Shown here: piece by piece, positions 3,055 to 41,090 of the stretch
Layout: each line of letters opens with the position of its first letter
How positions within the stretch are numbered: the stretch's first letter is position 1
NCBI RefSeq assembly: GCF_902170305.1
Contig: NZ_CABHWW010000011.1
Coordinates: 372,001-436,000 of the forward strand
Reading direction: 5' to 3'
DNA: 64,000 bases
From: Yersinia alsatica
GTDB taxonomy: Bacteria; Pseudomonadota; Gammaproteobacteria; Enterobacterales; Enterobacteriaceae
Notes under the pieces: generated by a model
Seen by the model: the letters and a program-made list of their open reading frames with translations, nothing else
Databases searched by the model: none
What the model was told of the DNA's origin: nothing
Made by a program: the position numbers and the translations under genes

Positions 3055-3120
3055 TTAGAGCTGGGAAATGATTTCTATCTGCCTGACTGTCACCAGATTT
3101 TTGTCCCGGAGGGTATGGCT

Positions 3121-5786: not shown

Positions 5787-5797
5787 GGAGACAAGCA

Positions 5798-6751: not shown

Positions 6752-6769
6752 GGAGCTAATAACCCCATC

Positions 6770-8239: not shown

Positions 8240-8250
8240 GGGAGTCAAAA

Positions 8251-8901
8251 ATGACCGGGACATTACTCATTAACAATCTGGCAGGGCTGCTAATTATTAC
8301 CTCGCTTCTGGTAATCATCGTCAAGAAGCCCGCCACCTCGGCGCTGTTTTACGCCTTGCAATCACTGGTGTTGGTGCTGATTTTTCTGGTGTTGGCGGAA
8401 ACATTGCATGCTCACGAACTGTATCTGTGGTCGCTGACCGCCTTTATCACCAAAGTGGTGCTGGTACCCTGGATTATGTATCGCGCTTTTCGTCAGATGG
8501 AAGACCCCAAAGCCAACGGCGGTGTTATTGGCACGGCCACGCTAATCTTTATCGCCGCCATCATTATCTTGCTGAGCTACTTCGTGGTGGAACCGGTGCA
8601 GTTACCGATGGTTAGCGCGCTGAAACCCGCGCTCGCTGTCTCGCTGGGGCATTTCCTGATTGGCCTGCTGTGTATCGTCACCCAGCGCAATATTCTAAAA
8701 AATATTTTTGGCTACTGCCTGATGGAAAATGGTGCTCACTTGATGTTAGCGCTGCTGGCCTTCCGCGCGCCAGAGTTGGTGGAGATTGGCATTGCTACCG
8801 ATGCCATTTTCGCCGTGGTGGTGATGACGCTAATGGCGCGCAAGATTTACCGCACATTGCACACGCTGGATGTTAAACAACTGACGGCGCTAAAGGGGTA
8901 A
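8251..8901 (+). CDS. hyfE: Hydrogenase-4 membrane subunit HyfE
   Basis: A 216-residue membrane protein, the same length as E. coli HyfE. It resembles a NuoK-like segment fused to extra helices. Conserved parts are [40 protein letters not shown] and the C-terminal [12 protein letters not shown]. The start [12 protein letters not shown] at 8251 is preceded by GGGAG, 11 bases after the hyfD stop. A longer in-frame reading upstream lies inside hyfD and is not used. Six or seven transmembrane helices are visible. Confidence 0.94.
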
Positions 8902-8905
8902 TGAA

Positions 8906-10543
8906 ATGAGTAATACTGACCTGCTGTTGTTACTGCTGGCGATACCTCTGATAGCCTCGCTGTTGGCATTTGCTTGCCGCTTCTTGGGGGGCGCGGCACG
9001 AATGGCGACCACTTGGGTGCATTTTACCGGTATCACTTTGCTGCTGGTGGTGGCGATGACGGTGGTCTGTCGGGTCGCACTGGGCGGGGAGATTCTGGTC
9101 GCCCATAACTGGCTGCATATCGACAGCCTCAGCGCCCTGTTCCTCGCCATTCTGGGGGTTATCGGCTTTATCACCGGCCTCTACTCCCTCGGCTATATGC
9201 GCCATGAAGTAAATAATGGCGAAATAACCGTTAGCACGCTGTGTAACTATTATGGATTTTTCCATCTATTCCTGTTCACCATGCTGCTGGTCGTCACCAG
9301 TAATAACCTGATTTTGATGTGGGTCGGCATCGAGGCCACCACCCTCAGCTCCGCCTTTTTGGTCGGTTTATATGGTCAGCGCTCGTCACTGGAAGCGGCC
9401 TGGAAGTACATTATTATTTGTACTGTCGGGGTGGCATTCGGGCTATACGGCACGGTGCTGGTGTATGCCAATGCCGCCAATGTGCTGGCTGATCCGGGTA
9501 GCGCCATTTTCTGGACGGTAGTGGCTGAACATGCCAAAGAACTGGACCCTAGCCTGATGCATCTGGCCTTTGTCTTTATTCTGATTGGCTTTGGCACCAA
9601 AACCGGTTTGTTCCCGATGCACTCTTGGTTGCCGGATGCCCACAGTGAAGCGCCAAGCCCCACCAGTGCTCTGCTATCCGCGGTATTACTTAATTGTGCA
9701 CTGCTGGTGATTATCCGCTATTACATCATTATCAGTGCTGCTATCGGGCCGCATTTCCCGCAAATGCTGTTACTGGTATTTGGCATGATGTCAGTTGCCG
9801 TCTCCGCATTCTTTATTCTGGCGCAGCGCGATATGAAGCGCTTGCTAGCCTACTCCAGTGTGGAAAACATGGGTTTAATTGCCGTGGCACTCGGTATTGG
9901 CGGGCCGCTGGGGGTGTTAGCCGCCCTGTTCCATACCCTGAATCACAGCCTGGCAAAAACCTTACTATTCTGCGGCTCTGGTAACGTGCTGTTGAAATAT
10001 GGTACCCGGGATATGGGGGCGATTAAAGGCATTATCCGCGTTGCGCCACTCACGGCGGTAATGTTGGCTGGTGGTGCGCTAGCGCTGGCTGGGATGCCGC
10101 CTTTTAACGTGTTCATTAGTGAGTTTATGGTGGTTGCCGCCGCGATTAAAGCCGGGCATATCACACTGGTCATTGTGTTGCTGTTACTGCTGACACTGGT
10201 GCTGGCAGGTTTGGTGCGCATGATAGCCAGCACTGTGCTGGGTACCCCCCCGGCGGCAGTCAGCAAAGGTGAACTGGGTATTCTCACCACCGCCCCCATG
10301 GCTATTTTATTACTGCTGATGCTGCTGCTTGGGGTCCATATTCCCTCACCGGTGACCCGTTTATTGACTGACGCGGCACAGATTGTGCTCAATGACAACA
10401 GCAGCGACGCCATTCATCAGCCCTTTATTTTGCCGTGGGAGCATTTGTCATTCATACCAGATATATCCCCGGCTCAACCTATTACTTCCGCCGCAGAAAC
10501 GCATCCCGCTCTGCCATTCACCCCGACTCGTCAGGAGATGTAA
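8906..10543 (+). CDS. hyfF: Hydrogenase-4 membrane subunit HyfF
   Basis: A 545-residue antiporter-like membrane subunit, the third of this family in the operon (with HyfB and HyfD). It shows [61 protein letters not shown] and [26 protein letters not shown], close to E. coli HyfF (526 residues). The last ~45 residues after the final helix are a soluble, poorly conserved, proline-rich tail slightly longer than in E. coli. It starts 4 bases after hyfE and ends 1 base before the hyfG GTG. Confidence 0.94.
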
Positions 10544-10544
10544 C

Positions 10545-12350
10545 GTGACTCACGAAACGCCTATTTCAGCTATTCCAGTTTCCGGTCAGCCAGTATCAGG
10601 GACGCCACACAGCGGTGAAAAATTGGGGGCTGCCTATGTGGCCCGCCTGCGCGAGCAGTTTCCAGCGGCAATCCTTGATGAAGAGTGGCAAACAGATAAT
10701 CAACTGACCATTACCATCAAGTTAAATAGCCTGCCCGATGTGGTTGAGCACCTTTATTATCAGCAAGGTGGCTGGCTGTCGGTACTGTTCGGCAATGACG
10801 AGCGCAGTTTGAATGGCTATTTTGCTATTTACTATGTGCTGTCGATGGAAGGCCGTGAACAATACGGCATTGATACCGGCAAACACTATGGCGACAAATG
10901 TTGGGTGATAGTCAAAGCCCTCATCAGCCCGGAACGGCCTGAATTCCCATCGGTCACCCCCAGAGTCCCGGCCGCGGTTTGGGGCGAGCGCGAAGTGCGT
11001 GATATGTATGGTCTACAGCCTGTTGGCCTGCCGGATGAGCGCCGTTTAGTCCTACCTGACGATTGGCCGGATGATCTCTATCCACTGCGCAAAGACACGA
11101 TGGATTATCGTCAACGCCCAACCCCCACCAGCGAGACTGAAACTTATCAGTTTGAAAATGAAGCGGGTAGCAGCAGCCGGGTGGTGCCTATCGGTCCCAT
11201 GCATATTACTTCCGATGAACCGGGCCACTTCCGCTTGTTTGTCGATGGCGAAGATATTATCGATGCCGATTACCGCCTGTTTTACGTCCATCGCGGCATG
11301 GAGAAACTGGCGGAAACCCGCATGGGCTATAACGACGTCACTTTCCTTTCGGATCGTATTTGCGGCATTTGTGGTTTCACCCACAGTGTGGCCTACACCT
11401 CATCAATTGAAAATGCGTTAGGTATTATCGTGCCGCCACGGGCGCAGATGATCCGCACCATTTTGCTCGAAGTGGAGCGGCTGCACAGCCACCTGCTCAA
11501 TATCGGTTTGTCCTGCCACTTTGTCGGTTTTGATACTGGGTTTATGCAGTTCTTCCGAGTGCGCGAAAAAGCCATGACCATTGCCGAGATGCTCACCGGC
11601 GCGCGTAAAACCTATGGCCTTAATCTGATTGGCGGAGTACGCCGCGATATCCTGAAAGCTGATCGCCTGAAAACACTGCAATTGGTGGCTGAGATGCGCG
11701 CGGATATCAGCGAGCTGGTGGACATGCTGATGAGCACCGCCAATATTGAGCAACGCACTGTCGGTGTTGGCCTGCTGGACCGCAAAGTGGCTCGCGATTT
11801 CAGCCCGGTCGGCCCCATGATCCGCGCCAGTGGTTATGCCCGCGATATGCGCCACGACCACCCTTATGCCAACTATGCCAATGTCCCTAAAGAGCTATTT
11901 AGTCTTGATGGCTGTGACGTGCACTCGCGCCTGCTGGTGCGAGTACGTGAATTCTTCGACTCATTAGTCATGATTGAATATGGTCTGAACCACATGCCCG
12001 GCGGGCCGCTGCTGGAAGAAAAAGTCCACTATCAGCCCTACAAGTTTGCCCTCGGATTCTCTGAAGCGCCGCGCGGCGAAGATGTCCACTGGAGCATGAC
12101 CGGTGACAATCAAAAACTGTTCCGTTGGCGCTGCCGGGCAGCCACTTACGCCAATTGGCCGGTGCTGCGCTATATGCTGCGCGGCAATACCGTTTCCGAC
12201 GCGCCATTGATTATCGGTAGCCTCGATCCCTGCTACTCCTGTACTGACCGCGTGACTTTAGTGGATGTGCGCAAGCAAAAATCCGTCACCGTGCCCTACA
12301 AAGAGATCGAGCGTTATGGCATTGAGCGCACCCATTCGCCGCTTAAATAG
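10545..12350 (+). CDS. hyfG: Hydrogenase-4 large (NiFe) subunit HyfG
   Basis: The catalytic large subunit, with an N-terminal NuoC-like domain and a C-terminal NuoD/NiFe domain as in HycE. NiFe ligands are RICGIC (Cys273, Cys276) and DPCYSC (Cys563, Cys566). The tail after Arg569 is 32 residues, the same length as the HycE tail removed by HycI after its Arg, so this precursor should be cleaved at TDR/VTL. The start is a GTG with AGGAG 7 bases upstream. The 601 residues exceed E. coli HyfG (555), because of about 25 extra residues at the N-terminus with a repeated PVSG motif and a short insert (GIDTGKHYGDK). Confidence 0.95.
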   Translation: MTHETPISAIPVSGQPVSGTPHSGEKLGAAYVARLREQFPAAILDEEWQTDNQLTITIKLNSLPDVVEHLYYQQGGWLSVLFGNDERSLNGYFAIYYVLSMEGREQYGIDTGKHYGDKCWVIVKALISPERPEFPSVTPRVPAAVWGEREVRDMYGLQPVGLPDERRLVLPDDWPDDLYPLRKDTMDYRQRPTPTSETETYQFENEAGSSSRVVPIGPMHITSDEPGHFRLFVDGEDIIDADYRLFYVHRGMEKLAETRMGYNDVTFLSDRICGICGFTHSVAYTSSIENALGIIVPPRAQMIRTILLEVERLHSHLLNIGLSCHFVGFDTGFMQFFRVREKAMTIAEMLTGARKTYGLNLIGGVRRDILKADRLKTLQLVAEMRADISELVDMLMSTANIEQRTVGVGLLDRKVARDFSPVGPMIRASGYARDMRHDHPYANYANVPKELFSLDGCDVHSRLLVRVREFFDSLVMIEYGLNHMPGGPLLEEKVHYQPYKFALGFSEAPRGEDVHWSMTGDNQKLFRWRCRAATYANWPVLRYMLRGNTVSDAPLIIGSLDPCYSCTDRVTLVDVRKQKSVTVPYKEIERYGIERTHSPLK

Positions 12351-12361
12351 AGGGATGAAAA

Positions 12362-12976
12362 ATGTTCAAACTGTTTAAAACCATCCTGAAAGTCGGCGAT
12401 ACCACGGTGAAATACCCGTTCAAGCCGCTCGAGGTTAGCTCAGGATTTCGCGGCAAACCCCAATATGATGCCGAGCAGTGCATTGCCTGCGGCGCCTGCA
12501 CGATGGCGTGCCCCGCCAATGCACTGACCATGGAAACCGACCTCGCCAGTGGCACTCGCCAATGGCAGTTATTCCTCGGGCGCTGCATTTTTTGTGGCCG
12601 CTGTGAGGAAGTCTGCCCGACACGCGCCATTGTGTTGTCGCAAGAGTTTGAATTGGCGGTATTCAATAAAGCCGATTTATATCAGCGCGCCAGCTTTACC
12701 CTCGTCCATTGCCGACAGTGCCAAAAGCCCTTTGCGCCCAAGAAAGAGGTGGATTACGTCATGGCACTGCTGATTCACTCCGGGATGAGTGCTGAGGATA
12801 TTGAACAGCAGCGGCCCCATTTTGAAACCTGCCCTGAGTGTAAACGTAAGCAGAACATTGTCGGCAATGACAACATTCTGCTTAAAAACAATATTCTGTT
12901 TAAAAATAATATCTTGCCTAAGAATAACATGTCTGTGAATAACCAGACACGCCGGGATGGGGAGAGCAACTTATGA
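12362..12976 (+). CDS. hyfH: Hydrogenase-4 ferredoxin-like subunit HyfH
   Basis: A 204-residue NuoI-like iron-sulfur subunit linking HyfA-type carriers to the small subunit. It has two [4Fe-4S] motifs, [12 protein letters not shown] (about residues 40-51) and [12 protein letters not shown] (about 77-88). Two further CxxC pairs (CRQC and CPEC) match positions in E. coli HyfH (181 residues). The C-terminal ~30 residues are unusual: degenerate hexapeptide repeats [18 protein letters not shown], read from an 18-bp DNA period at about 12868-12935. It overlaps hyfI by 4 bases. Confidence 0.94.
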
Positions 12977-13779
12977 GTCAGCCACATTCATTAAAACCGG
13001 CCTGGGGCCACCATGTCAGCCAACCGGTCGCCCTTGATCCTGCGGTGGCACAGTTAAAAGGCAAACTGCTGAAGGATATTAAGCGCTCAGCCTATGTTTA
13101 TCGCGTGGACTGTGGTGGCTGCAACGGCTGTGAAATCGAGATTTTCGCTGCTATTACCCCGCTGTTCGACACCGAACGGTTTGGTATCAAGGTCGTGGCT
13201 TCACCGCGTCACGCCGATATTCTGCTGTTCACCGGTGCCGTGACTCGCGCTATGCGCACCCCGGCGCTGCGGGCCTATGAATCGGCACCGGACCCCAAAA
13301 TTTGTGTCTCTTATGGCGCTTGTGGCTGCGGTGGCGGTATCTTCCACGACCTCTACTGTGTCTGGGGTGGCAGTGACACCATTGTGCCCATTGATGTTTA
13401 TATTCCCGGCTGCCCGCCCACTCCCGCTGCCACTATTTATGGCTTTGCTGTCGCACTTGGCTTGTTGGAGCAAAAACTAAAAGGTGAGGATCATCAGGAG
13501 GCTGACGCTGAACGCGCGGCATTGATTCACCCTGATGCGCCGCTCAGCCTGCGGGTGTTATTAGAGCGCGAGGCTCGGCGGATGGCGGGGTATCGTCAGG
13601 GGCGAGAAATCACCGACAGCTTCTTGTCACTGCTGGTCAATCAGCCCTTGGCGGAGCTAGAGCTGCGCTGCAAGATTTACCTTAATAAGCAAGATGACCC
13701 ACGGCTAAGTGAGATATTTGCCAGCCTGCAACAAATCACACTGACGCAACTGGCGGGAGGGCATATTAATGTCCGCTAA
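12973..13779 (+). CDS. hyfI: Hydrogenase-4 small subunit HyfI
   Basis: The NuoB-like small subunit (268 residues) carrying the proximal [4Fe-4S] cluster next to the NiFe site. Ligand motifs are CGGCNGCE (Cys47, 50, 53), GACGCGGG and PGCPPTP. The N-terminal ~30 residues are more variable. E. coli HyfI is 252 residues. It begins in an ATGA overlap with hyfH and overlaps hyfJ by 11 bases, so translation of the three is likely coupled. Confidence 0.94.
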
Positions 13780-14173
13780 AGTTATTTTTTATGCCCTGAA
13801 CCAGAAGTTCCTCGACAGTGATGATGATATGCCCGAGCAGGCGCAGCAAGTGATGTATTACTCATTGGCTATCGGTCACCATGTCGGCGTCATCGATTGC
13901 CTGAAAGCCATTATGGAGTGCCCGCTGGCAGAGTATCAACAGTGGTTCGGTCAGCTACCTGAAGGGGAAGCACGCCGCAAAATGGCTGGCTTGCTGAAAT
14001 TTGGTGAAATCACCATCGACAGCACTCATACCCAATTACTGGCTCAGGCTTTTGCACCACTGGCACAAGACCCCGCCTCGTTGCACCAGCCATGGAGCCA
14101 ACAACTGCTGCAAACCCTGTACGATATTGAGCAGGAACCGGCAATCTATCTCATGGTGAAACGTCGCCCATGA
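13769..14173 (+). CDS. hyfJ: HycH/HyfJ-family hydrogenase maturation protein
   Basis: A 134-residue protein of the HycH/HyfJ family, required in E. coli (as HycH) for maturation of the formate hydrogenlyase large subunit. The family-typical segments [32 protein letters not shown] and [12 protein letters not shown] are present. Its molecular role is poorly defined. It overlaps hyfI upstream and hycI downstream (4 bases), consistent with a dedicated maturation block at the end of the operon. Confidence 0.9.
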
Positions 14174-14661
14174 CTATACACAACAGAGCGCTCAATTCAG
14201 GCGCAACCACTAACCTGGTATTAACGGTCGGTAACAGCATGATGGGCGATGACGGCGCTGGCCCGCTATTGGCCGAGCGCATGACCCAGCAACCATTAGC
14301 CGATTGGCAAGTAATTGATGGCGGCTCAGCCCCCGAGAATGTCGTCCATCGTATTCGCGCTTTACAGCCGACACGGCTGATTATTGTCGATGCTGCCGAT
14401 ATGGAGCTGCCCCCAGGGGAAATTCGTATTATTGACCCAGAGCGGATTGCTGAGATGTTCATCATGAGCACCCATAATTTGCCGCTCAATTTTCTGATCG
14501 ATCAACTAAAGGAAGATATCCACGAGGTGCTATTCGTGGGGATCCAACCCACATTGGTGGCGTTCTATTTTCCCATGACCGATGTCGTCAAGCAGGCGGT
14601 GGAAACCTTGTATCAGCAACTGCCTCACTGGCAAGGTGACGGCGGTTTTCATCATCTTTAA
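14170..14661 (+). CDS. hycI: Hydrogenase maturation endopeptidase HycI
   Basis: A 163-residue aspartic-type protease that removes the C-terminal tail of the large subunit after nickel insertion. Nickel-sensing residues of the family are visible: Asp in GNSMMGDDGAGPLL (about residue 27-28), Asp in IIVDAADM, and His in MSTHNLPLN. It is close to E. coli HycI but has about a dozen extra N-terminal residues. In E. coli hycI is in the hyc operon and hyf lacks it. Here it is the last gene of hyf, giving the system its own protease for HyfG. Confidence 0.94.
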   Translation: MTIHNRALNSGATTNLVLTVGNSMMGDDGAGPLLAERMTQQPLADWQVIDGGSAPENVVHRIRALQPTRLIIVDAADMELPPGEIRIIDPERIAEMFIMSTHNLPLNFLIDQLKEDIHEVLFVGIQPTLVAFYFPMTDVVKQAVETLYQQLPHWQGDGGFHHL

Positions 14662-14800
14662 TTGAGTGACGGTGTGGCGTCGTCAAATTTGCCGACGTCA
14701 CATCCACCGACAGTTACCCCCTTTATTTCCATTCTAATAAAATTCAAATAACTCATTATAAAACAATGATTTTAGCTCATTTTCATCGACTCCCGTCAAC
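14662..14800. promoter_or_regulatory. Upstream region of hydN, candidate activator sites
   Basis: This gap between hycI and the hydN sigma54 promoter contains an interrupted inverted repeat, GTGACG at 14665-14670 and CGTCAC at 14696-14701, with GTCGTCA and GCCGACGTCA inside. Its place about 100 bp upstream of the promoter fits an enhancer-type activator site. No gene is seen. Confidence 0.4.
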
Positions 14801-14817
14801 TTGGCATAAACCATGCA
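14801..14817 (+). promoter_or_regulatory. Sigma54 promoter of hydN-fdhF
   Basis: TTGGCATAAACCATGCA has the GG-N10-GC spacing (GG at 14803, GC at 14815) with TGGCAT and ATGCA as near-consensus elements. It lies about 125 bp before the hydN ATG because an ERIC repeat sits in the leader. Confidence 0.75.
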
Positions 14818-14842
14818 ATAAACCATGAAATATGTAGGGAAT

Positions 14843-14929
14843 AAGTGAAGCCCGACGAGCTGACTCCAGTCAGTGATTCGGGTGAGCGAATGCAGCCAAC
14901 ACCGCTGCAACTTGAAAGATGAAGGGTAA
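14843..14929 (+). repeat. ERIC element in the hydN leader
   Basis: The sequence CCAGTCAGTGATTCGGGTGA with flanking GACGAGCTGACT and GCAGCCAACACCGCTGCAAC is an ERIC element. It lies between the sigma54 promoter and the hydN start codon. Its right end runs into the hydN ribosome binding site (AAGGAG, just after GAAGGGT). Confidence 0.85.
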
Positions 14930-14941
14930 GGAGATTAAGCA

Positions 14942-15484
14942 ATGAACCGGTTCATAATTGCAGACCCAAAAAAGTGCATTGGTTGCCGCACCTGTGAGGT
15001 GGCCTGCGTGCTGGCACATAACGGTGGCAGGCTGGATGCCATGACCAAAGCTAATTTTGCTCCACGGCTAAAAGTGGTCAAAGGGCTCAATGTCAGTACC
15101 GCCATTATGTGTCGTCACTGCGAAGATGCACCTTGCGCCAATGTTTGCCCGAACGGCGCGATCATTCGGGCATCTGACAGCATTCAGGTATTGCAGGAAA
15201 AATGCATTGGCTGCAAAACCTGCGTTGTTGCCTGCCCATATGGGGCCATGAATGTGGTGACCAAACAGGTCGAAGTAATGTTCAACGGCCTGTCGCAAGG
15301 ATTTTGTCTGAAAGCTGAAGCCCAGAAATGCGATTTATGTGAGGGCCGCGCCGCTGGCCCGGCCTGCATTTCCGTGTGCCCAACTCAGGCACTCCACATG
15401 ATTGGTCGCGACACCATGCAGGCCATGCTACGCAAGAAACAGATGCGGGCGGCGCTGGATGAAGCCAATGAGATGAGTTTCTAG
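14942..15484 (+). CDS. hydN: Formate dehydrogenase-H electron-transfer ferredoxin HydN
   Basis: A 180-residue four-cluster ferredoxin, partner of FdhF. Its motifs are CIGCRTCEVAC (Cys12-22), CRHCEDAPCANVC, CIGCKTCVVAC and CDLCEGRAAGPACISVC. It is homologous to HyfA but shorter, and matches E. coli HydN. AAGGAG lies 8 bases before the ATG, at the right border of an ERIC repeat. The gene is followed 144 bp later by fdhF, on the same strand with another ERIC between, so the two are probably one transcript from the 14801 promoter. In E. coli hydN is next to hypF instead. Confidence 0.93.
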   Translation: MNRFIIADPKKCIGCRTCEVACVLAHNGGRLDAMTKANFAPRLKVVKGLNVSTAIMCRHCEDAPCANVCPNGAIIRASDSIQVLQEKCIGCKTCVVACPYGAMNVVTKQVEVMFNGLSQGFCLKAEAQKCDLCEGRAAGPACISVCPTQALHMIGRDTMQAMLRKKQMRAALDEANEMSF

Positions 15485-15514
15485 TCGACACGGCTGCAAC
15501 ACCCAATAAATCCA

Positions 15515-15621
15515 TAACGTTGCAGCAAGGTAGCAATTGAGCAAATCCCGCAGAACTGACCGCGGTCAGTCATTCGGGTGACGAGAGCAGCTAACCCGCT
15601 GCGGCTCCAGGAACGAAGGAT
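15515..15621 (+). repeat. ERIC element between hydN and fdhF
   Basis: CGGTCAGTCATTCGGGTGA with left arm TTGCAGCAAGGTAGCAATTG and right arm GCAGCTAACCCGCTGCGGCT is a diverged ERIC element. It fills most of the hydN-fdhF gap. Its right terminus (GAACGAAGGA) supplies the Shine-Dalgarno sequence of fdhF. Confidence 0.8.
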
Positions 15622-15628
15622 AATTAAC

Positions 15629-17776
15629 ATGCACAAGGCACTCACTGTCTGTCCCTACTGCGGCTCCGGCTGCAAAATAAATTTGCTGGTTGAAAACGGC
15701 AAGGTTGTTGGTGCTGAAGGCGCAAATGGCGTCACTAATCAGGGCGAATTGTGTCTGAAAGGCTACTATGGCTGGGATTTCCTCAATGACACCAAATTGC
15801 TGACACCGCGCTTAAAACAGCCGATGATCCGTCGTCAAAAAGGCGGCAAACTGGAGGCGGTTTCATGGGATGAAGCTATCGAATTCGCCAGTAGCAAGCT
15901 GAGGGAAATTAAAGAAAAATATGGCCCGGAAGCGATTATGCACACTGGTTCTTCCCGTGGGCCGGGCAATGAAACTAACTATGTCATGCAAAAATTTGCC
16001 CGTGCAGTCACCGGCAGCAACAATATTGATTGCTGCGCTCGAGTGTGTCATGGCCCATCAGTGGCGGGCCTGCAAGTGACGCTGGGTAACGGCGCGATGA
16101 GTAACTCCATCTGCGAGATTGAAGACACCAAATGTATTTTAGTGTTTGGCTATAATGCCGCCGACTCCCACCCTATCGTGGCACGGCGAATTCTCAAGGC
16201 AAAAGAGAAAGGCGCTAAAGTTATTGTTTGCGATCCTCGCCATATCGAAACCGCGCGTATTGCCGATCTCTGGTTGCCGTTGAAAAATGGCTCGAATATG
16301 GCGCTGGTTAATGCTTTCGCTAACGTCCTCATCACCGAAGAGTTATACGACAAAGATTATGTTTCGCGCTATACCGAAGGGTTTGATGAATATCGTGCCA
16401 TAGTCGCCAAATATACGCCGGAATATGTCGAAGGCATTACCGGCCTGCCAGCACAAACCATTCGTGAAGCAATGCGCATCTATGCCGCCGCACCTTCCGC
16501 CACTATTTTGTGGGGCATGGGGGTGACTCAATGGGGCCAAGGTGTCGATGTCGTTAAGGGATTATCCGGATTGGCCTTACTGACCGGCAACCTCGGGCGG
16601 CCCAATGTCGGTGTCGGCCCGGTTCGTGGGCAAAATAACGTGCAAGGTGCCTGCGATATGGGAGCATTGCCGAATATGTATCCCGGATATCAAGCCGTTA
16701 CCGACCCAGCAACGCTAGAGAAATTTGCCAAAGCCTGGGGAGTGCCTTCTCTGTCCGGCAAAATTGGCTACTCACTGACCGATGTTCCGCACAAAGTGAA
16801 AGAAGGCAAAATCAAAGCCAACTATGTGATGGGCGAAGATCCACTGCAAACTGAACCGGATTTATCGATGATGCGCGAAGCATTCAGCGAGTTGGAACTG
16901 CTGATTGTGCAGGACATCTTTATGACCAAAACCGCCGCCGAAGCAGATGTGATCTTCCCTGCGACGTCGTGGGGCGAGCATGAGGGAGTTTACTCGGCCG
17001 CCGACCGCGGTTTCCAGCGCTTTGAGAAAGCGGTTGACCCACAAGGTGATGTCAAACCGGATTGGGAAATTATCAGCCTGATGGCGACGGCCCTCGGCTA
17101 TCCGATGAAATATAATAATACCCAAGAAATTTGGGATGAACTGCGCGAATTATGCCCGCTGTATTATGGCGCAACCTACGAGAAAATGGCCGGTTTAGGC
17201 TATATTCCCTGGCCTTGTACCACCGAGGACAGCCCCGGCACGCCGTGGTTATATGCTGGTAATAAATTCGACCGTCCCGGCGGTAAAGGATTGTTATTTG
17301 CCAGTGAATGGCGGGCACCTATGGAACAGGTAGATGAGGAATATCCACTGGTGCTCTGTACTGTTCGCGAAGTCGGTCACTACTCTTGCCGCTCGATGAC
17401 CGGTAACTGTTCGGCATTACAGACCTTGGCCGATGAGCCTGGTTATGTGCAAATCAGCCCACAAGATGCCAATAAAATGCATCTGGAAGATCAGCAATTG
17501 GTTTGGGTTGAATCGCGGCGCGGCAAAGTTATCACTCGAGTATCGGTCAGTGAACGCATCAATGTCGGTGCGGTGTATATGACTTACCAGTGGTGGATTG
17601 GCGCCTGTAATGAATTGACTCTGGACCATTTAGACCCGATATCCAAAACCCCGGAATACAAATATTGTGCCGTGAAACTGGAACCTATTACGGATCAGAT
17701 CTGGGCAGAAAATTACGTGCAACAGGAGTATAGCCAGTTGAAGGCGCGGTTACGTAGAGAAGCTGAAGTCAATTGA
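15629..17776 (+). CDS. fdhF: Formate dehydrogenase H, cysteine form
   Basis: A 715-residue molybdenum enzyme that oxidises formate to CO2, the formate-oxidising unit of formate hydrogenlyase. Its length equals E. coli FdhF. The [4Fe-4S] ligands Cys8, Cys11, Cys15 and Cys42 are present, as are GPVRGQNNVQGACDMG and the C-terminal MGD-binding domain (YMTYQWWIGACNELT). The key difference is residue 140. E. coli has selenocysteine (RVUHGPS), whereas here codon TGT at 16046-16048 gives RVCHGPS with His141 intact. No UGA recoding is therefore needed. The start MHKALTVCPYC follows AAGGA by 8 bases. A longer in-frame reading upstream runs through the ERIC and is not used. Confidence 0.96.
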   Translation: MHKALTVCPYCGSGCKINLLVENGKVVGAEGANGVTNQGELCLKGYYGWDFLNDTKLLTPRLKQPMIRRQKGGKLEAVSWDEAIEFASSKLREIKEKYGPEAIMHTGSSRGPGNETNYVMQKFARAVTGSNNIDCCARVCHGPSVAGLQVTLGNGAMSNSICEIEDTKCILVFGYNAADSHPIVARRILKAKEKGAKVIVCDPRHIETARIADLWLPLKNGSNMALVNAFANVLITEELYDKDYVSRYTEGFDEYRAIVAKYTPEYVEGITGLPAQTIREAMRIYAAAPSATILWGMGVTQWGQGVDVVKGLSGLALLTGNLGRPNVGVGPVRGQNNVQGACDMGALPNMYPGYQAVTDPATLEKFAKAWGVPSLSGKIGYSLTDVPHKVKEGKIKANYVMGEDPLQTEPDLSMMREAFSELELLIVQDIFMTKTAAEADVIFPATSWGEHEGVYSAADRGFQRFEKAVDPQGDVKPDWEIISLMATALGYPMKYNNTQEIWDELRELCPLYYGATYEKMAGLGYIPWPCTTEDSPGTPWLYAGNKFDRPGGKGLLFASEWRAPMEQVDEEYPLVLCTVREVGHYSCRSMTGNCSALQTLADEPGYVQISPQDANKMHLEDQQLVWVESRRGKVITRVSVSERINVGAVYMTYQWWIGACNELTLDHLDPISKTPEYKYCAVKLEPITDQIWAENYVQQEYSQLKARLRREAEVN

Positions 17777-33205: not shown

Positions 33206-33229
33206 AAGCCCCTGTTGGGGCTTTTTTAT
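33206..33229 (+). terminator. Rho-independent terminator of frmAB
   Basis: AAGCCCC-TGTT-GGGGCTT followed by TTTTATT, 40 bp after the frmB stop. It separates the backbone frmAB operon from the AT-rich darobactin cluster that follows. Confidence 0.9.
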
Positions 33230-33415
33230 TTGATCAAAAATATATAATGACTTCTGTTACGAATATATCTAATAAAGAATAAAACAATAATGAAACTAAT
33301 TAATGGCGATAAAAATCTCAGATGCAAAAAACATTGATAAACTCTAAAAAAAGAATTACAAATAAATGGTTCAACACTTACCGCTGTTCTGTCACATCGA
33401 AAGGGAATTATTTAA
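33230..33415 (+). promoter_or_regulatory. AT-rich leader/promoter region of the darobactin cluster
   Basis: This 186-bp stretch is strongly AT-rich and holds no gene. A TATAAT hexamer at 33243-33248 is the best -10 candidate, but no -35 at proper spacing is clear, so the promoter is not assigned. AAGGGA at 33401-33406 is the ribosome site for darA. Confidence 0.35.
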
Positions 33416-33628
33416 ATGGAGAATTATATGTATACTTCACATCAACCAGAGAAGAAAACAAGTAATACAAATTTGATAGCACTGAGAACTAAACTGGAAT
33501 CATTAGAGGAATCCTTTAAAAATAGTGGGTTGTCTATAGATGCCCAAGAAATTGAAAATCTAAAAAATAGTGAGTCTGAAAATAAAATAACCGCTTGGAA
33601 TTGGTCAAAAAGCTTTACACAACAATAA
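33416..33628 (+). CDS. darA: Darobactin A precursor peptide
   Basis: A 70-residue RiPP precursor. Residues 61-67 (33596-33616) read W-N-W-S-K-S-F, the seven-residue core of darobactin A. They are preceded by ITA and followed by a three-residue tail, TQQ. The leader (residues 1-60) is charged and helical (LRTKLESLEESFKNSGLSID), similar in style to the Photorhabdus DarA leader, whose core is also preceded by ITA. In darobactin the first Trp is joined to the second by an ether bond and the second Trp to Lys by a carbon-carbon bond. Starts are possible at 33416 (AAGGGA 9 bases upstream) or at 33428 (GGAG 6 bases upstream, giving 66 residues). Identification rests on the exact core plus the matching gene set downstream. 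Confidence 0.95.
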   Translation: MENYMYTSHQPEKKTSNTNLIALRTKLESLEESFKNSGLSIDAQEIENLKNSESENKITAWNWSKSFTQQ

Positions 33629-33659
33629 GCTAGCCAATGAAATCATTTAATGTAAATCG

Positions 33660-33687
33660 ATTAAGATGCTTTTACTAGCATCTTAAT
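33660..33687 (+). terminator. Hairpin between darA and darB (possible attenuator)
   Basis: ATTAAGATGC and GCATCTTAAT form a perfect 10-bp stem around TTTTACTA, 31 bp after the darA stop, followed by TTC. It is a plausible partial terminator giving more precursor message than transporter/enzyme message. The short T-run suggests incomplete termination. Confidence 0.6.
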
Positions 33688-33823
33688 TTCAATAGCTAAC
33701 CAATAGATTTCAACTTGGTTCGAATGCTGAATGTAATTTATTTTAATGCTAATCAGTAATACAACGCCATTTTATTAGTAATAACATCACTAGATTTTAT
33801 TAAAACCAGTGAGATATTCCCCT

Positions 33824-36184
33824 ATGCTGACAAGTGAATTTTTTAATGATTTGAAGCTAAGCCCAATCTCAAGCCTGTTAGCAATAATAGTAACGGCCAT
33901 TGGATTAATCTCATCGTTTCTAGTGTTACTTCTTTATTTAACTGACTTTCGCATTGAAAAACAGCATGAAAACTACAAAGATATTTATCGAATAGAAACA
34001 CGCTTTAATTTGCCCAATGGTGATGAAATAAAATCAGCACAAGTTCCCTTGCCGCTTATTTCTATTTTGGAGAATGATAAAGATATCAAACATGTTAGCG
34101 CCATTGTTCGTATATTCACCCGCTTGCAAGTCAACGATAAAAACCACTCAAATGTAGATATCTATGCCGTTAGCGCTAACTTTTTTAACACTTTAAATCC
34201 TTACCAACAAAAAATCCCCTATCTGGCACGTAATGAAATTATTATCACTCCAGAATTTAACCGCCAATATCTTCATTTGGATAGTCCGCAAGGGCATGTC
34301 ATTACATTAGGGGATAAAGGGCAATTTATCATTAAGGAAGTGGTTGAATTCAATAAGTCGAGTCGTTTTAACACCAAAGCAATCATAGCATTGGCCCCTG
34401 AAATTATAGATAGCTACCAAGATAAAAGACATGATTGGTATGATACACACGCCTATGCATTTATTACTATGGAACCCGGAACCAAGCCCAATACTGAGCA
34501 ACTGAATTCATACATCAGCCAGTACGCCCCTCAACTTCCTGGTGCCCCTTTTAGCCCTGAAGAGTTCATCCAGTTATCGACTCGCCATATTACCGATATT
34601 CATTACGATAATGCATTACCTGATGAGATCAGCATGGTGATTTCATCAGCATATTTAAATATTTTATATGCCTCTGGTTTATTTGTTTTTTTAACCACAA
34701 CCATGAATTTCTTCAATATTAACAATGTTATTAATACAAACAAGAAAAACAGTTTTTATGTCAAAAAAGCCGTAGGCGCCTCCCATTATCAACTCATTAT
34801 TGAGTCATTCTTCATTGCAACATTGCAAACTGTATTTATGCTTTTGTTGGTTCTATTCATCTTAGTCTCTCTAATACAACTATCGGATGGTGTCAGAGAG
34901 CTAATTTTCACTCATGGTAGTCAAGATTTCTTAACTGCATTCTCTATTACACTAGCAGCCACATACCTGGCTATTTTACTGGCTCATTTTCTATTTTTGT
35001 TTACCCTTTCTCGCCCGAATAACAGCTATTACACTCAACAGTCTCGTAGCCAAGGTATACAGAGCCTCATGTTTTGTTTACAGTTGATTATAGCTGGCAT
35101 CATTATTTACTTGTGGGCTGGCATCACGACGCAAATGCGGTTTATGCAAAATAATAACTTTGGTTATGAAACTGAGAATATCGTAACATTCGCACTAAAT
35201 GACGAATTAAAATCTCATGTATCAATAAATAACTTGCAAGATAAATTAAGAGCAGAAATTCAAACAAATAATATTGCAATGAGTAGCTGGCAGCCATTTG
35301 ACATGTCGAGAACTAATATCTCGGTGTTTCATCATAACCAGCAAGAGAAAGATAAATTAGCCACAGTAAATACAGTAAATGTAAATAAACACTTTATTAA
35401 TACGTGGGGTATGAAAACTCTTGCAGGTAGTGAAAATCCTATCCTACCCAGTGATGATAAAAATATACATCATGCTATTGTAACCAGGTCTTTCTTAACT
35501 TTAATGGGGTTAGATTCTTATGACCAAGTATTAAATAATTTATTCTATATAAACGAAGAGGATATGCAGCAACCAGTAAAAATCATGAGGATAGTCGATG
35601 ATTTTTATCTCGCAGATCGTGAAAACACTCCATCACCACTACTTATTTTCATTAAACATGATATTCAACGCTATGCCGCAGTAAAACTCCACAACATACG
35701 GGATATAAACACTATAACAAAATTATTACAGCACTATGGTGTTAATCCTGAACAAATAAAATCAGTCAATAATTTACACAAAGAGTATTTTGACAATAAT
35801 ATACTCATGCAGAAAACCATTAGTAGAGTTACTCTATTATCAATTATATTAATTATTATTAGCACAATAATAATCAGCACATCTGAAACTAAACGCCTTG
35901 GCAAAACATTAGAAATAATGACATCAATTGGTGGTTCTATTTATACTAACATCATTTTCTTTATACAGCAGAATCTAATCCCTATAGTTATCGCCACCGG
36001 AATATCACTTCCTGTCAGTTTTTTATTATTACATCGGTGGATGAATCAGTACAGTTTAGTCAGTGGCGTATCCTATGTCTATGCAACTTGTGCACTCCTT
36101 AGTTTCATTTTATTCGTGATTGTTGTTATGACTATTACACTTATTTTTAATAACAACACACTGACTATCAGGAGAAATAAATAA
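33824..36184 (+). CDS. darB: DarB, FtsX/MacB-type ABC permease
   Basis: A 786-residue membrane protein with MacB-like architecture. An N-terminal helix (about 18-42) is followed by a large periplasmic domain, three or four helices in the middle (about 280-420), a second extracytoplasmic domain and a C-terminal helix set (about 645-780). It is therefore a duplicated FtsX-type permease. With DarD (ATPase) and DarC (adaptor) it should export darobactin. The ATG at 33824 is preferred over an upstream GTG at 33809 because a weak GTGAG ribosome site precedes it. Codon use is AT-rich, unlike the flanking backbone genes. The family assignment is secure; the substrate is inferred from the adjacent precursor. 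Confidence 0.88.
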   Translation: MLTSEFFNDLKLSPISSLLAIIVTAIGLISSFLVLLLYLTDFRIEKQHENYKDIYRIETRFNLPNGDEIKSAQVPLPLISILENDKDIKHVSAIVRIFTRLQVNDKNHSNVDIYAVSANFFNTLNPYQQKIPYLARNEIIITPEFNRQYLHLDSPQGHVITLGDKGQFIIKEVVEFNKSSRFNTKAIIALAPEIIDSYQDKRHDWYDTHAYAFITMEPGTKPNTEQLNSYISQYAPQLPGAPFSPEEFIQLSTRHITDIHYDNALPDEISMVISSAYLNILYASGLFVFLTTTMNFFNINNVINTNKKNSFYVKKAVGASHYQLIIESFFIATLQTVFMLLLVLFILVSLIQLSDGVRELIFTHGSQDFLTAFSITLAATYLAILLAHFLFLFTLSRPNNSYYTQQSRSQGIQSLMFCLQLIIAGIIIYLWAGITTQMRFMQNNNFGYETENIVTFALNDELKSHVSINNLQDKLRAEIQTNNIAMSSWQPFDMSRTNISVFHHNQQEKDKLATVNTVNVNKHFINTWGMKTLAGSENPILPSDDKNIHHAIVTRSFLTLMGLDSYDQVLNNLFYINEEDMQQPVKIMRIVDDFYLADRENTPSPLLIFIKHDIQRYAAVKLHNIRDINTITKLLQHYGVNPEQIKSVNNLHKEYFDNNILMQKTISRVTLLSIILIIISTIIISTSETKRLGKTLEIMTSIGGSIYTNIIFFIQQNLIPIVIATGISLPVSFLLLHRWMNQYSLVSGVSYVYATCALLSFILFVIVVMTITLIFNNNTLTIRRNK

Positions 36185-36189
36185 ACATT

Positions 36190-37452
36190 ATGGATATAAA
36201 AATAGAACAAAAAACATCTATAAATAAAAGTGCTAAGTTAGTCATTATTTGCGTATTGCTGATATTTATTTCAGGTATTTATTCTGTATATTATTTATCT
36301 ACCGCACAACAAACCTTACTCATTTCTCGAGACGATGCTATTTTTCATACAATAAAACTAGAAGCTTATCAAGATCGACTCATTACCCGAGCTATTACTG
36401 TACCAAAGGAGAGTATAATTGTATCGAGTGAGCGAGGCGGGAAAATTATTAATATTACTAAACAGGCCTTTGATACTGTTGTAAAAGGGGATGTTATTGC
36501 CAATTTATCAAACTATGACTTTATGCTGGAGGCAACATCCAGAATAGCCACCATTGCTGAAAAAATAAATAACCTGCGTAATATGAAAATACTGCTGGAA
36601 CAAGATAATCGAGATACAAAGATTAGCTTGCAGGAAGCTGAACACCAAATAGCTATAATTTCTAAAGATTTAAATAGACATCAAGAACTTGACAAAAAAT
36701 CGATGATTGCAAAGTCAGAATTAGAATATCAGGTTGGTATGTTAAAAAACTGGCAGGCAAAAATTGATATACTACGGGTGCATGATAATAAAAACAAAGA
36801 GTCATTCCCCCCCCAATTGAAAAGTATTGATAGTTCAATTTTATTGCTTGAACGGATGATGAAAATGATCGAAAACGGTATGGATCAGTTAGTAATAACT
36901 GCACCTATTGATGGGACATTATCTGTTTTAGATATTGAGTTAGGCCAACAAATAAAACCGGGTGAAAAAATTGCAATCATAGATAACTTACAGTCCTATT
37001 ATTTTAATGTTTACTTCAGTGAATATTATCTTGATAAGATAATCCCACAGAGCCATATCGTTTCACAAATAAATGGTCAAGATATTCCATTACTCATTGA
37101 ATCTGTATCAACCATTGTTGAAAATGGTAAATTTAAAGCAAAACTTGTACCTTACCATGATAGCGCCATCCCACTAAAAAGGGGACAATCGATTGAAATA
37201 CAAATCTCATTACACGAAGAAAATAACAATGTATTACTGGTACCTACAGAGAGTGTTATTTCAGATAAGCATGGGGATAAATTTATTTATATCTACCAAC
37301 CAGAAAAGGATCAGGCGGTTAAAACTCAGATTGAAACTAAACGTAGAAGCGCTATAAAAACCGAAATCACCACAGGATTAATGGCTGGACAACAAATTGT
37401 TATGCCTCCTAATACCAATAATAATGAATATTCTATCATTGAGTTCAAATAA
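36190..37452 (+). CDS. darC: DarC, HlyD/MacA-type periplasmic adaptor
   Basis: A 420-residue membrane-fusion protein. A single N-terminal anchor spans about residues 17-35. A lipoyl-like half (VSSERGGKIINIT, VKGDVIANL) follows, then a helical hairpin (about 110-210) and the second half of the barrel (ITAPIDGTLSVLDIELGQQIKPGEKIAII). It would bridge the permease to an outer-membrane channel such as TolC, which is not encoded here. It starts 5 bases after darB and ends 1 base before the darD ATG, so the three transporter genes are tightly coupled. Confidence 0.88.
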   Translation: MDIKIEQKTSINKSAKLVIICVLLIFISGIYSVYYLSTAQQTLLISRDDAIFHTIKLEAYQDRLITRAITVPKESIIVSSERGGKIINITKQAFDTVVKGDVIANLSNYDFMLEATSRIATIAEKINNLRNMKILLEQDNRDTKISLQEAEHQIAIISKDLNRHQELDKKSMIAKSELEYQVGMLKNWQAKIDILRVHDNKNKESFPPQLKSIDSSILLLERMMKMIENGMDQLVITAPIDGTLSVLDIELGQQIKPGEKIAIIDNLQSYYFNVYFSEYYLDKIIPQSHIVSQINGQDIPLLIESVSTIVENGKFKAKLVPYHDSAIPLKRGQSIEIQISLHEENNNVLLVPTESVISDKHGDKFIYIYQPEKDQAVKTQIETKRRSAIKTEITTGLMAGQQIVMPPNTNNNEYSIIEFK

Positions 37453-37453
37453 T

Positions 37454-38113
37454 ATGCTAACCATTCAAAATGCCCAGAAGTGTTACATCACTAAAACAAT
37501 AAAAACCAAGGTTCTTAATCATCTTAGTTTTTCTGTAGAAAAAGGTGATTTTGTTGCTATTATGGGGCCATCCGGGTCAGGTAAATCAACACTACTCAAT
37601 ATCATTGGTATGTTTGATAACCTAGACAGTGGCTCACTCACTCTCGCCGGAAAAGATGTCACCAACTTGACCTATTCACAAAAAATCATTCTGAGAAGAT
37701 CACTTATAGGTTATATTTTTCAGTCATTTAATCTTATTTCCCATTTATCCGTCTTTGATAATATTGCGTTACCGCTTAAATATCGCGGTATTAATAAGAA
37801 AGAGCGCATTGAACGAGTCGATCAAGTCTTGACGCTTTTCGGTATTGAGAACCGGAGAGACCATAAACCGATACAATTATCTGGCGGCCAACAACAACGC
37901 GTAGCAATAGCCCGGGCAATGGTATCTAAACCTGCATTACTTTTAGCTGATGAACCAACTGGGAATTTGGATAGTAAAAATTCACATACAGTGCTTCAAC
38001 AATTGAAAAATATTAATAAAAAAGGCACCACTATTATTATGGTGACACATTCAGATGAAGCTTCTGCATATGGGAATAGAGTCGTTAACATGAAGGATGG
38101 TAATTTCACATGA
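37454..38113 (+). CDS. darD: DarD, LolD/MacB-type ABC ATPase
   Basis: A 219-residue ABC ATPase of the FtsE/LolD/MacB group. Walker A is GPSGSGKST (38-46), the Q-loop is IFQSFNLI, the signature is LSGGQQQR (142-149), Walker B is LLLADEPT (162-169) and the switch His is in MVTHSDE. It energises the DarB permease. The start [14 protein letters not shown] at 37454 is chosen as the family-type N-terminus immediately after darC. A longer frame reads back into darC. The C-terminus is short. Confidence 0.92.
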
Positions 38114-38130
38114 CAAGATAGGAATACATT

Positions 38131-39456
38131 ATGGAAAATAATATACCGATTAAAAATATTGATTGCATTGATATTAATAATATAAATGTGCAAGACTTAA
38201 AGAAACTTGATACTTGTGAATATAAAAACTTATCCGCTTATCTCATAGGGAAGATTCCAGCCCCCAAATTATTAGAGACTGATGAATTAGAAATATATAA
38301 TGAAGAAATAAAACAAAATATTTCTGCCAAAGCAATTAAAGCAGAGAAGTTAGTTATTGTGTTGAAAGCAACACGTTTATGTAACTTGCGCTGCACTTAT
38401 TGCCACTCATGGGCTGAAGGCCCCAATCAGACAGTTTTATTTCAGACCTTAGTGCATACTGTACGCCAACTCCTTGCTATTCCGAATGTAAACAGATTTG
38501 AGTTTGTATGGCATGGAGGAGAAATTACACTGTTAAAACCTTCTTTTTTTAAAAAGCTTATATGGTTACAACAGCAATTTAAACGACCAGAACAATATAT
38601 AACCAACACCATGCAGTCAAACTTAGTCAACATTTCGGATGAGTGGCTAAAATTCATCCAAGGCATTGGCATGAATGTCGGGATTAGCCTTGATGGAGTC
38701 CCAACTGTAAATGATAAGCGGAGAATTGATTATCGAGGGCGAGGGACATCGGCTCGTGTTGCACAAGGAATTAAAAAACTTCGCCAGCATAATATTTTAT
38801 ATGGCGCACTCATTGTTGTTGACCGAGATGTATATCAAACTGACATGAGAGAAATGCTAGATTATTTTATTTCAATAGAATTAAATTGCATTGAGTTCCT
38901 TAATATCGTGCCAGATAATCGGTTGGTCAAAGGTGAGTATGTTGGCTATAACTTTATCAGTTATGCTGAGTTTATTCATTTCCTCTCAATATTATTTACT
39001 CTCTGGGTAAAAGATTACCAAGAAAAAATACATATTGCCGTTTTTGACGATTTTATAAAGGTGCTAAAAAATCCTAGCCAGAAACCAGCTGCCTGCTACT
39101 GGTCAGGTAATTGCTCACAAGAAATTATTACTCTGGAACCCAATGGGGATGTATCACCTTGCGATAAATATGTCGGTGATCAAAACAGTATTTATGGCTC
39201 ATTATTATCTACTGACTTAGCAGATCTTCTAGCACGCTCACCACATAATCAACAAGCCATCAATGAGGAAAAAGAAGCGACTAAAAAAATGCATCATTGT
39301 CAGTGGTTTTCTATTTGCCATGGCGGTTGCCCCCATGATCGAGTGATTAATCGTAGACACACCAAAGGATATAATGATGCATGCTGCGGCACCGGGAAAT
39401 TGCTGACCACCATCCAGAACTATATAACCAGTACTACTGAAGCCACCGGGTTGTGA
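38131..39456 (+). CDS. darE: DarE, radical SAM/SPASM darobactin synthase
   Basis: A 441-residue radical S-adenosylmethionine enzyme. The cluster motif CNLRCTYC (Cys84, 88, 91; CxxxCxxC) is followed by WHGGE, the SAM-binding GGE type. SPASM-type cysteines appear late: CYWSGNC, VSPCDKY, CQWFSICHGGC and DACCGTGK. In known darobactin clusters DarE alone forms both the Trp-Trp ether and Trp-Lys carbon-carbon crosslinks on DarA. AGGAA lies about 10 bases before the ATG. It is the last gene of the operon and ends convergent with kgtP. The stop codon lies in the loop of a 9-bp inverted repeat (CTACTGAAG/CTTCAGTAG, 39434-39465), which may help termination. Confidence 0.93.
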   Translation: MENNIPIKNIDCIDINNINVQDLKKLDTCEYKNLSAYLIGKIPAPKLLETDELEIYNEEIKQNISAKAIKAEKLVIVLKATRLCNLRCTYCHSWAEGPNQTVLFQTLVHTVRQLLAIPNVNRFEFVWHGGEITLLKPSFFKKLIWLQQQFKRPEQYITNTMQSNLVNISDEWLKFIQGIGMNVGISLDGVPTVNDKRRIDYRGRGTSARVAQGIKKLRQHNILYGALIVVDRDVYQTDMREMLDYFISIELNCIEFLNIVPDNRLVKGEYVGYNFISYAEFIHFLSILFTLWVKDYQEKIHIAVFDDFIKVLKNPSQKPAACYWSGNCSQEIITLEPNGDVSPCDKYVGDQNSIYGSLLSTDLADLLARSPHNQQAINEEKEATKKMHHCQWFSICHGGCPHDRVINRRHTKGYNDACCGTGKLLTTIQNYITSTTEATGL

Positions 39457-39494: not shown

Positions 39495-40832
39495 TTATAG
39501 TTCAACTTCTTGTCCTTTACGATGTAAACGTAAAGAAACCAAGAAAGTTAAGAAACACATTGCCGAGACATACCAAAAGAAGCTGCTTTCCATATCAAAT
39601 GATTTGAGTGATAGCGCCACATATTCAGCACTACCACCAAACATTGCATTGGCGACGGCATAGGATAAGCCAACACCTAAAGCGCGGACTTCTGGTGGAA
39701 ACATTTCTGCTTTCAGTAGCCCGCCAATGGAGGTGTAGAAGCTAACAATAATTAGGGCCGTGACAATCAGGGCAAAAGCAATATAGGGGCTGGTGACGCC
39801 TTTTAGTGCATGCAAAATTGGCACCGTGAGCAGCATTGATAATAAAGCAAAAATCAGCATGGACGTTCGCCGGCTAATACGGTCGGATAGCGCACCAAAT
39901 AGTGGTTGGATTATCATGAAAATAAACAGTGCTGCCGTCATGACTAAGCTGGCAGTTTTTACATCCATCCCTGCGGTATTGACCAAATACTTTTGCATAT
40001 AGGTGGTATAAGTATAAAAAGAGAGCGAGCCACCGGCTGTGAAGCCCAATACCATAATAAAAGCACGGCGGTTCTTCCACAGCCCTTTTAAGCTACCAGC
40101 ATCTTTTTTATTGCGTGTCTTTTCATCCGAAGTTTCATTTAGCGAGCGCCGTAAGTAAAGTGCAACCACGGCCAGTAATGCCCCCAATACAAAAGGAATA
40201 CGCCATCCCCAACTATGCAATACTTCCGATGGCAGGGTTTGCTGTAATAAAACCAGCACTAATAATGCCAATAATTGTCCGCCAATTAGCGTGACATATT
40301 GGAAAGAGGCATAAAAACCTTTGCGCCCTTTCACCGCAACTTCACTCATGTAAGTGGCGCTAGTACCATATTCTCCACCAACAGATAACCCCTGAAATAG
40401 GCGCGCAACCAATAACAAAATAGGAGCCAGGCTACCAATTGAGGCATAAGTGGGTAAGCAGGCAATCATTAACGATCCCGCGCACATCATGTAGACAGAA
40501 ATAAGCATCGAGAGCTTACGGCCATGCTTATCGGCGATATATCCAAATAACCAACCGCCAATTGGGCGCATCAAAAAGCCCGCAGCAAAAACCCCCGCAG
40601 TTTGGACTAACTGGGTCGTAGGATTATCATTAGGAAAAAAAAGGGGCGCAAAGTAGAGCGCGCAGAATGAATAAATGTAGAAGTCGAACCATTCAACCAA
40701 ATTACCCGAAGAAGCACCAACAATGGCCCGAATTCTCTGCCGAGTATCCGCTTGTTCCGTTAGCCGAGCTGAATGCGCGGCTATTGCTGTACTTTCTGCC
40801 GATGCCGCATCTACTGATGTTGTGTCTGCCAT
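39495..40832 (-). CDS. kgtP: Alpha-ketoglutarate permease KgtP
   Basis: A 445-residue proton symporter of the MHS branch of MFS, importing 2-oxoglutarate. Nearly continuous matches to E. coli KgtP include [58 protein letters not shown] and [20 protein letters not shown]. The start MADTTSVDA at 40832 is chosen to fit the E. coli N-terminus; the reading frame extends 23 codons further. It is convergent with darE, 38 bp apart. The 324 bp upstream (to 41156) hold a palindrome and otherwise no gene. Confidence 0.92.
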
Positions 40833-41090
40833 ATTGATGTGTCCGTCATCTTGTGGGACGTCCATGCCGCCATAAACCCAGCTCCGAATATGTGCAGGCA
40901 CTGAACTCTCATTTCTATATTGTTATGTTGTTATATATTGGTAACAATATCGTTTCAATTGGAGTTCCCCCCCAGACGGCAGTTTAGGAAAAACCTCACT
41001 TCCTCTTGTGATGTCAATTGCATAAATATGTAATCAAACATGTGTGATTAGAATTTTTTGAGAGAGTAACCGCAGAAATAAGCCATCATA

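Follow-up and report, generated by a model that had tools for sequence, protein, structure and literature searches.

The dar operon described in this study represents, in complete form, the darobactin A cluster type already published for Yersinia, a reading to which we assign a probability of about 95% and which holds, in addition, that the product would be exported by DarBCD and that this export is the likeliest means of self-protection. The operon lies in a Yersinia alsatica genome of 5,007,657 bases in 40 contigs, on contig C11, within the stretch of 64,000 nucleotides that was analysed as a whole (the window). It occupies positions 33428-39456 of the plus strand, with darA, darB, darC, darD and darE following each other in this order and with every frame open. 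All five Dar proteins (5/5) score above the NCBIfam equivalog cut-offs, the models being curated and darobactin-specific. The initial annotation of this DNA had proposed a complete darABCDE operon of five intact genes in a Yersinia-like genome; the five models and the five open frames confirm this, and its readings of the core as ITA-WNWSKSF-TQQ and of the motif as CNLRCTYC were likewise correct. The operon and its surrounding elements are listed here by window coordinates.

33206..33223, + strand: intrinsic-terminator-like hairpin with a T run, 3' of frmB (consensus scan)
33334..33362, + strand: promoter-like footprint TTGATA-17-TACAAA, 5' of darA (alignment of 18 Yersinia)
33428..33628, + strand: darA, precursor, probably 66 aa, core WNWSKSF, follower TQQ (NF038004, 80.8 bits, cut-off 45)
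33659..33688, + strand: conserved RNA hairpin 3' of the darA stop codon, lacking a strong U run (fold and covariation analysis)
33824..36184, + strand: darB, ABC permease (NF038008, 1253.9 bits, cut-off 700)
36190..37452, + strand: darC, periplasmic adaptor of the HlyD type (NF038010, 706.4 bits, cut-off 450)
37454..38113, + strand: darD, ABC ATPase (NF038007, 436.5 bits, cut-off 375)
38131..39456, + strand: darE, radical SAM/SPASM darobactin synthase (NF038005, 838.4 bits, cut-off 650)

Identity of the operon and start sites

The precursor model NF038004 gave a single match in the whole 5.0 Mb genome (E=4.6e-22), so that the identification is not a matter of chance, and no second precursor was found by searching the genome with this model up to E 10. 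The matched peptide exceeds the cut-off of its model and has a core of the type W-x-W-x-K/R-x-F, the genes of the DarBCD exporter are placed in order between darA and darE, and DarE is a radical SAM/SPASM synthase by its NF038005 score, its place in the DarE tree and its cysteines: the motif CNLRCTYC, at residues 84-91, and eight further C-terminal cysteines are invariant in 11 of 11 aligned DarE sequences. DarB had been described as an FtsX/MacB-type permease, of which the MacB part holds (MacB_PCD, 31 against a Pfam cut-off of 27), whereas FtsX stays below its threshold (19.2 against 25.5).

The precursor had initially been read as a peptide of 70 residues. An in-frame ATG does exist at 33416, and this longer form of 70 aa may be made; however, translation probably starts at 33428 and gives 66 residues, since GGAG (33418-33421) stands six bases 5' of this ATG, the DarA printed for Y. 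frederiksenii begins at the second Met of the window frame, and the second site has ATG in 17 of 18 aligned Yersinia sequences (the first in 10 of 18). The exception is G215 (L103), which has ATA at the second site and an ATG four codons upstream; the DarA printed for Y. rohdei (PMC8694152), otherwise like that of G215, begins with Met where G215 has ATA. For darB, the ATG at 33824 rather than the GTG at 33809 is probably the start: this ATG is present in all 18 aligned Yersinia (18/18), and AGTGAGATAT is exactly kept before it in 9/18.

Genomic site, spread and descent in the genus

Each of the 25 genus genomes compared has one copy of frmB (25/25), and in the assembled carriers the dar operon occupies one common site 3' of this gene. 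DarE exceeds its cut-off in 14/25 genomes, the window genome included, with partial matches in 2 more, and DarA is matched in 18 of the 25. The order in the fetched stretches is frmA, frmB, dar, an MFS gene (if present), a gene which we take to be DUF924-like, and moeA. The DUF924-like gene has no match in G217; the operon is split across two contigs in G200, the fetched stretch stops short of moeA in G202, G212 and G218, and the latter two are cut by contig ends. The MFS gene had no match in the stretches fetched from G203, G200, G213, G215, G201, G205, G176 and G216. In the window, an MFS transporter gene adjoins darE on the minus strand (39495-40901), and a run of hydrogenase-4/formate hydrogenlyase-like genes was noted by eye at 3115-17776. 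The gap between frmB and darA measures 255-282 bases in 15 of the 18 genomes compared and 456-459 bases in G214 and G217; in G203 (L100) it is 1838 bases.

The dar operon is under purifying selection, as judged by comparison with 7 other genomes out of the 13 that have a full darE. Against the nearest relative (G040), dN/dS was 0.21 for darA, which comprises 66 codons only, 0.14 for darB, 0.13 for darC and 0.07 for both darD and darE (frmA 0.01, frmB 0.03). Against six further genomes the dar genes gave values of 0.04 to 0.24, which are rough because dS exceeded 1 in 29 of the 30 comparisons.

The DarE tree (22 rows) has three radical SAM matches below the cut-off as its outgroup. The 14 Yersinia sequences form one branch in it, with support 100/99, apart from Photorhabdus, the other daropeptide enzymes and the three below-cut-off proteins, and the window copy pairs with that of G040 (100/99); the tree has long branches, that of G004 above all, and 8 of its 19 inner branches are open. 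The NF038005 score and this branch together support DarE as a darobactin synthase.

Daropeptide loci were also seen in other genera. A small frame in G004, a member of another genus of the family (L117:7087-7317), ends in LAWNWSFRF and precedes darB, darC, darD and a DarE scoring 719.6 against 650. It has Phe where Lys or Arg is expected, the analysis covering one genome of that genus; no NCBIfam model matched it at E 1e-5, that of the darobactin precursor among them, and the literature searched did not contain the string WNWSFRF. In one other genus, precursor frames with the core WNWSKGF and a different leader are present in G167 (L114) and G022 (L118), and this string was likewise not found in the literature searched. 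DarE exceeds the cut-off in 4/5 genomes of the latter genus, two of these having an internal stop, and is incomplete in G022.

Conserved elements around darA

The consensus scan gave 7 terminator-like sites, compared with 4.1 for shuffled sequence. The hairpin at 33206..33223 probably keeps the frm transcript apart from that of dar, and a similar stem-loop with a T run was seen by eye 3' of frmB in 18 aligned Yersinia. In a conserved A-rich context 66 to 94 bases upstream of the darA start lies a footprint with TTGATA in all 18 aligned Yersinia (18/18), followed 17 bases on by TACAAA, which is exact in 14/18. A longer pattern of this footprint occurs once in the genome at <=3 mismatches, the reversed-pattern control giving 0, and TTGATA-17-TACAAA is read as a putative promoter. 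The footprint was absent from the list of the promoter scan, a scan which carries no weight since it gave 29 sites against 33.0 in shuffles. A small leader peptide of 47 aa before darA (33322-33465) was considered and rejected: its start codon is lost in G204, G207, G209 and G212, and the conserved stretch before darA is therefore read as DNA rather than as a gene.

On the other side of darA, the 65 bases at 33626-33690 fold with an MFE of -14.4 kcal/mol (z -3.69). The consensus hairpin (33659..33688) comprises 10 pairs, and 95.9% of its cells are paired over an alignment of 18 sequences, 17 of them distinct; slid controls did not exceed 49.4%. Changes on both sides were counted in 32 cells, compared with 11.4 in shuffles; the number of pairs changed on both sides, 6, was not above that of shuffles (mean 5.5; reached by 298/500), and further pair types, of which there were 10, were fewer than the 13.6 of shuffles. 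Most of these changes fall within a single group (5 or 6 sequences), which leaves few independent covariation events, and in the folds of the relatives the hairpin was not predicted in G217. As the hairpin has no strong U run, we favour for it a role in partial termination or 3' protection, which would leave more darA than darB-E transcript. In the part of the darobactin literature that was consulted, the word 'hairpin' refers to beta-hairpins of BamA.

Decay of the locus

Remnants of dar without a whole darE were found in five Yersinia genomes among the 25 (G198, G199, G204, G206 and G211), which argues that the trait is dispensable. The breaks lie inside assembled sequence, and assembly errors may be behind single ones. 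G198 (L112) keeps darA to darD and has a broken darE. darA is also kept in G204 (L136), with darB in two pieces and darE reduced to residues 1-69, and in G206 (L137), with darB in several pieces and darE reduced to residues 350-434. In G211 (L168, 7521-11850) darB, darC and darD are open and neither darA nor darE is matched, and G199 retains residues 1-83 of darB only. Across the five, darC and darD are present in 4/5, darA in 3/5 and an unbroken darB in 2/5 (G198 and G211). These two genomes keep DarBCD open, and cut-offs are passed by DarB of G198 and by DarB, DarC and DarD of G211. A clean rule by which the exporter is kept is nevertheless disfavoured, since darB is also damaged in three of the five. 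dar is absent from G210, which has the MFS gene, and from G205, G176 and G216, which have neither and are the three most diverged genomes by frmB (88%). A thin literature search found no published account of dar decay in Yersinia.

It is possible, if doubtful, that dar is an old genus-wide trait of Yersinia which decays synthase first, that some lineages keep DarBCD against producing neighbours, and that the covarying hairpin after darA sets a surplus of precursor transcript over that of the genes for exporter and synthase. The small leads that this locus offers are in any case two: the conservation seen on both sides of darA, and the loss of darE, in some genomes beside a retained exporter.

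Self-protection, product and alternative explanations

According to the proposed mechanism, DarA would be made in the cytoplasm and DarE would introduce an ether bond between Trp1 and Trp3 and a C-C bond between Trp3 and Lys5 of the core WNWSKSF. Leader and follower would be trimmed off by housekeeping proteases, and the product, exported by DarBCD, would block BamA of Gram-negative competitors, the producer being protected by this export rather than by an altered BamA. In relatives, the chemistry of DarE, the trimming of leader and follower by E. coli proteases and an exporter-linked tolerance have been established by others. For darobactin A, whose mass is given as 965.4032 Da ([M+2H]2+ 483.7089), killing of Gram-negative bacteria directed at BamA has been reported (PMC8694152).

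BamA was compared between all 25 genus genomes (25/25) and E. coli K-12. Within residues 418-448 (E. coli numbering) all 25 differ from E. coli at 426 and 442, and D447E occurs only in G209, a carrier, and G210, a non-carrier; in the C-terminal stretch 798-810, position 799 differs from E. coli in 25/25. Over the whole length of the alignment, no column distinguishes the 14 carriers from the 4 genomes that have no dar remnant. An altered BamA in carriers was not supported as a means of self-resistance, as the gate region compared does not set carriers apart from non-carriers. Since residue 426, at which every one of the 25 Yersinia has Leu and E. coli has Phe, has been reported to make a backbone contact with darobactins (PMC10107326), the genus-wide change (426, 442) could possibly affect the target. 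In E. coli Nissle, plasmids with dar genes gave an MIC of >16 vs 1.6 ug/mL, an effect that the authors credit to the exporter genes (PMC11559228). Because BamA is alike in carriers and non-carriers, and in view of this plasmid-borne tolerance, self-protection is probably achieved through export by DarBCD.

It is unlikely, although this is the alternative that weighs most, that the operon, for all its intact sequence, is cryptic and rarely or never expressed, in which case the strain would not truly be a producer. Five predicted producers, which according to the methods of PMC8694152 were four Yersinia strains (including Y. frederiksenii ATCC 33641) and one Photorhabdus strain, showed in culture neither matching activity nor the mass; there, five strains stand beside four analog letters, and the pairing of strain with analog is not fully clear. 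The remnants without a whole darE in 5/25 genus genomes point the same way. Silence in three media (PMC8694152) is, however, weak evidence, and the purifying selection on the five genes, together with the conserved promoter-like footprint and hairpin, argues for use in nature. We infer that the strain expresses the operon in its natural setting.

As regards the product, a monocyclic daropeptide would result if DarE formed the ether ring only, as the Y. intermedia enzyme did when supplied with DarA of P. khanii (PMC9055067). That precursor was foreign, however; acting in E. coli on its own WNWSRSF precursor, the same enzyme made both crosslinks and a bicyclic product (PMC9055067), and the window precursor, with its standard Lys core, is encoded next to its own DarE, which makes a monocyclic product highly improbable. 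Least probable of all is a recent arrival of the operon in this strain as a foreign island. Its G+C content (34.5%, against 46.8% for the window) would favour such an origin, but the assembled carriers of the genus have the same site after frmB, the Yersinia DarE sequences form the single branch described above, and no tRNA was found in the window. A site common to the genus speaks against recent acquisition, and the low G+C would fit an old acquisition of dar by the genus. The cluster serves as the setting for two small questions, namely the silence of Yersinia dar in the laboratory and the possible retention of the exporter as immunity by non-producers.

Comparison with known systems

dar clusters of Yersinia, Vibrio and Pseudoalteromonas have already been published (PMC8694152, PMC9055067), and Table 1 of PMC8694152 gives DarA sequences under the names of seven species of Yersinia. 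When DarA was checked against characterised clusters, it proved identical over 66/66 residues to the peptide printed for the darobactin A cluster of Y. frederiksenii (row 'Y. frederiksenii, A'), so that the precursor is already in print and the strain, judged by this one peptide, would probably be assigned to Y. frederiksenii; no difference was seen between the two clusters, the comparison covering DarA only, which is the sole peptide printed there (PMC8694152). The dar operon in Yersinia is thus already known and adds neither a new producer genus nor a new compound. The suggestion that a carrier outside Photorhabdus would be notable does not hold, given these clusters and the full-length darE in 14/25 genus genomes.

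Yersinia DarE is assigned to cluster III of the daropeptides in PMC9055067. The Y. intermedia system shares this DarE type and differs in its core, WNWSRSF there and WNWSKSF here (PMC9055067). The motif scan of genome contigs used two unspecific motifs and matched at least 44 loci, and the absence of Yersinia from the listed matches carries no weight; among the matches listed, the close relative of DarE is L055 of Photorhabdus asymbiotica with 56% identity, the next having 32%. DynA, the dynobactin maturase, and DarW belong to related peptide clusters and are likewise radical SAM/SPASM enzymes, and the window DarE falls below the cut-offs of both, at 191.3 bits against 450 for DynA and at 493 against 650 for DarW. 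The Photorhabdus darABCDE operon of the P. khanii type (G138), in which one frame contains the DarA printed for P. khanii (PMC8694152), bears out the likeness in layout that had been drawn at the outset: its gene order and its core WNWSKSF are the same, all five genes are matched and its DarE exceeds the cut-off. This DarE is 56% identical to that of the window, the leader differs, and the follower is QEI in Photorhabdus and TQQ in the window.
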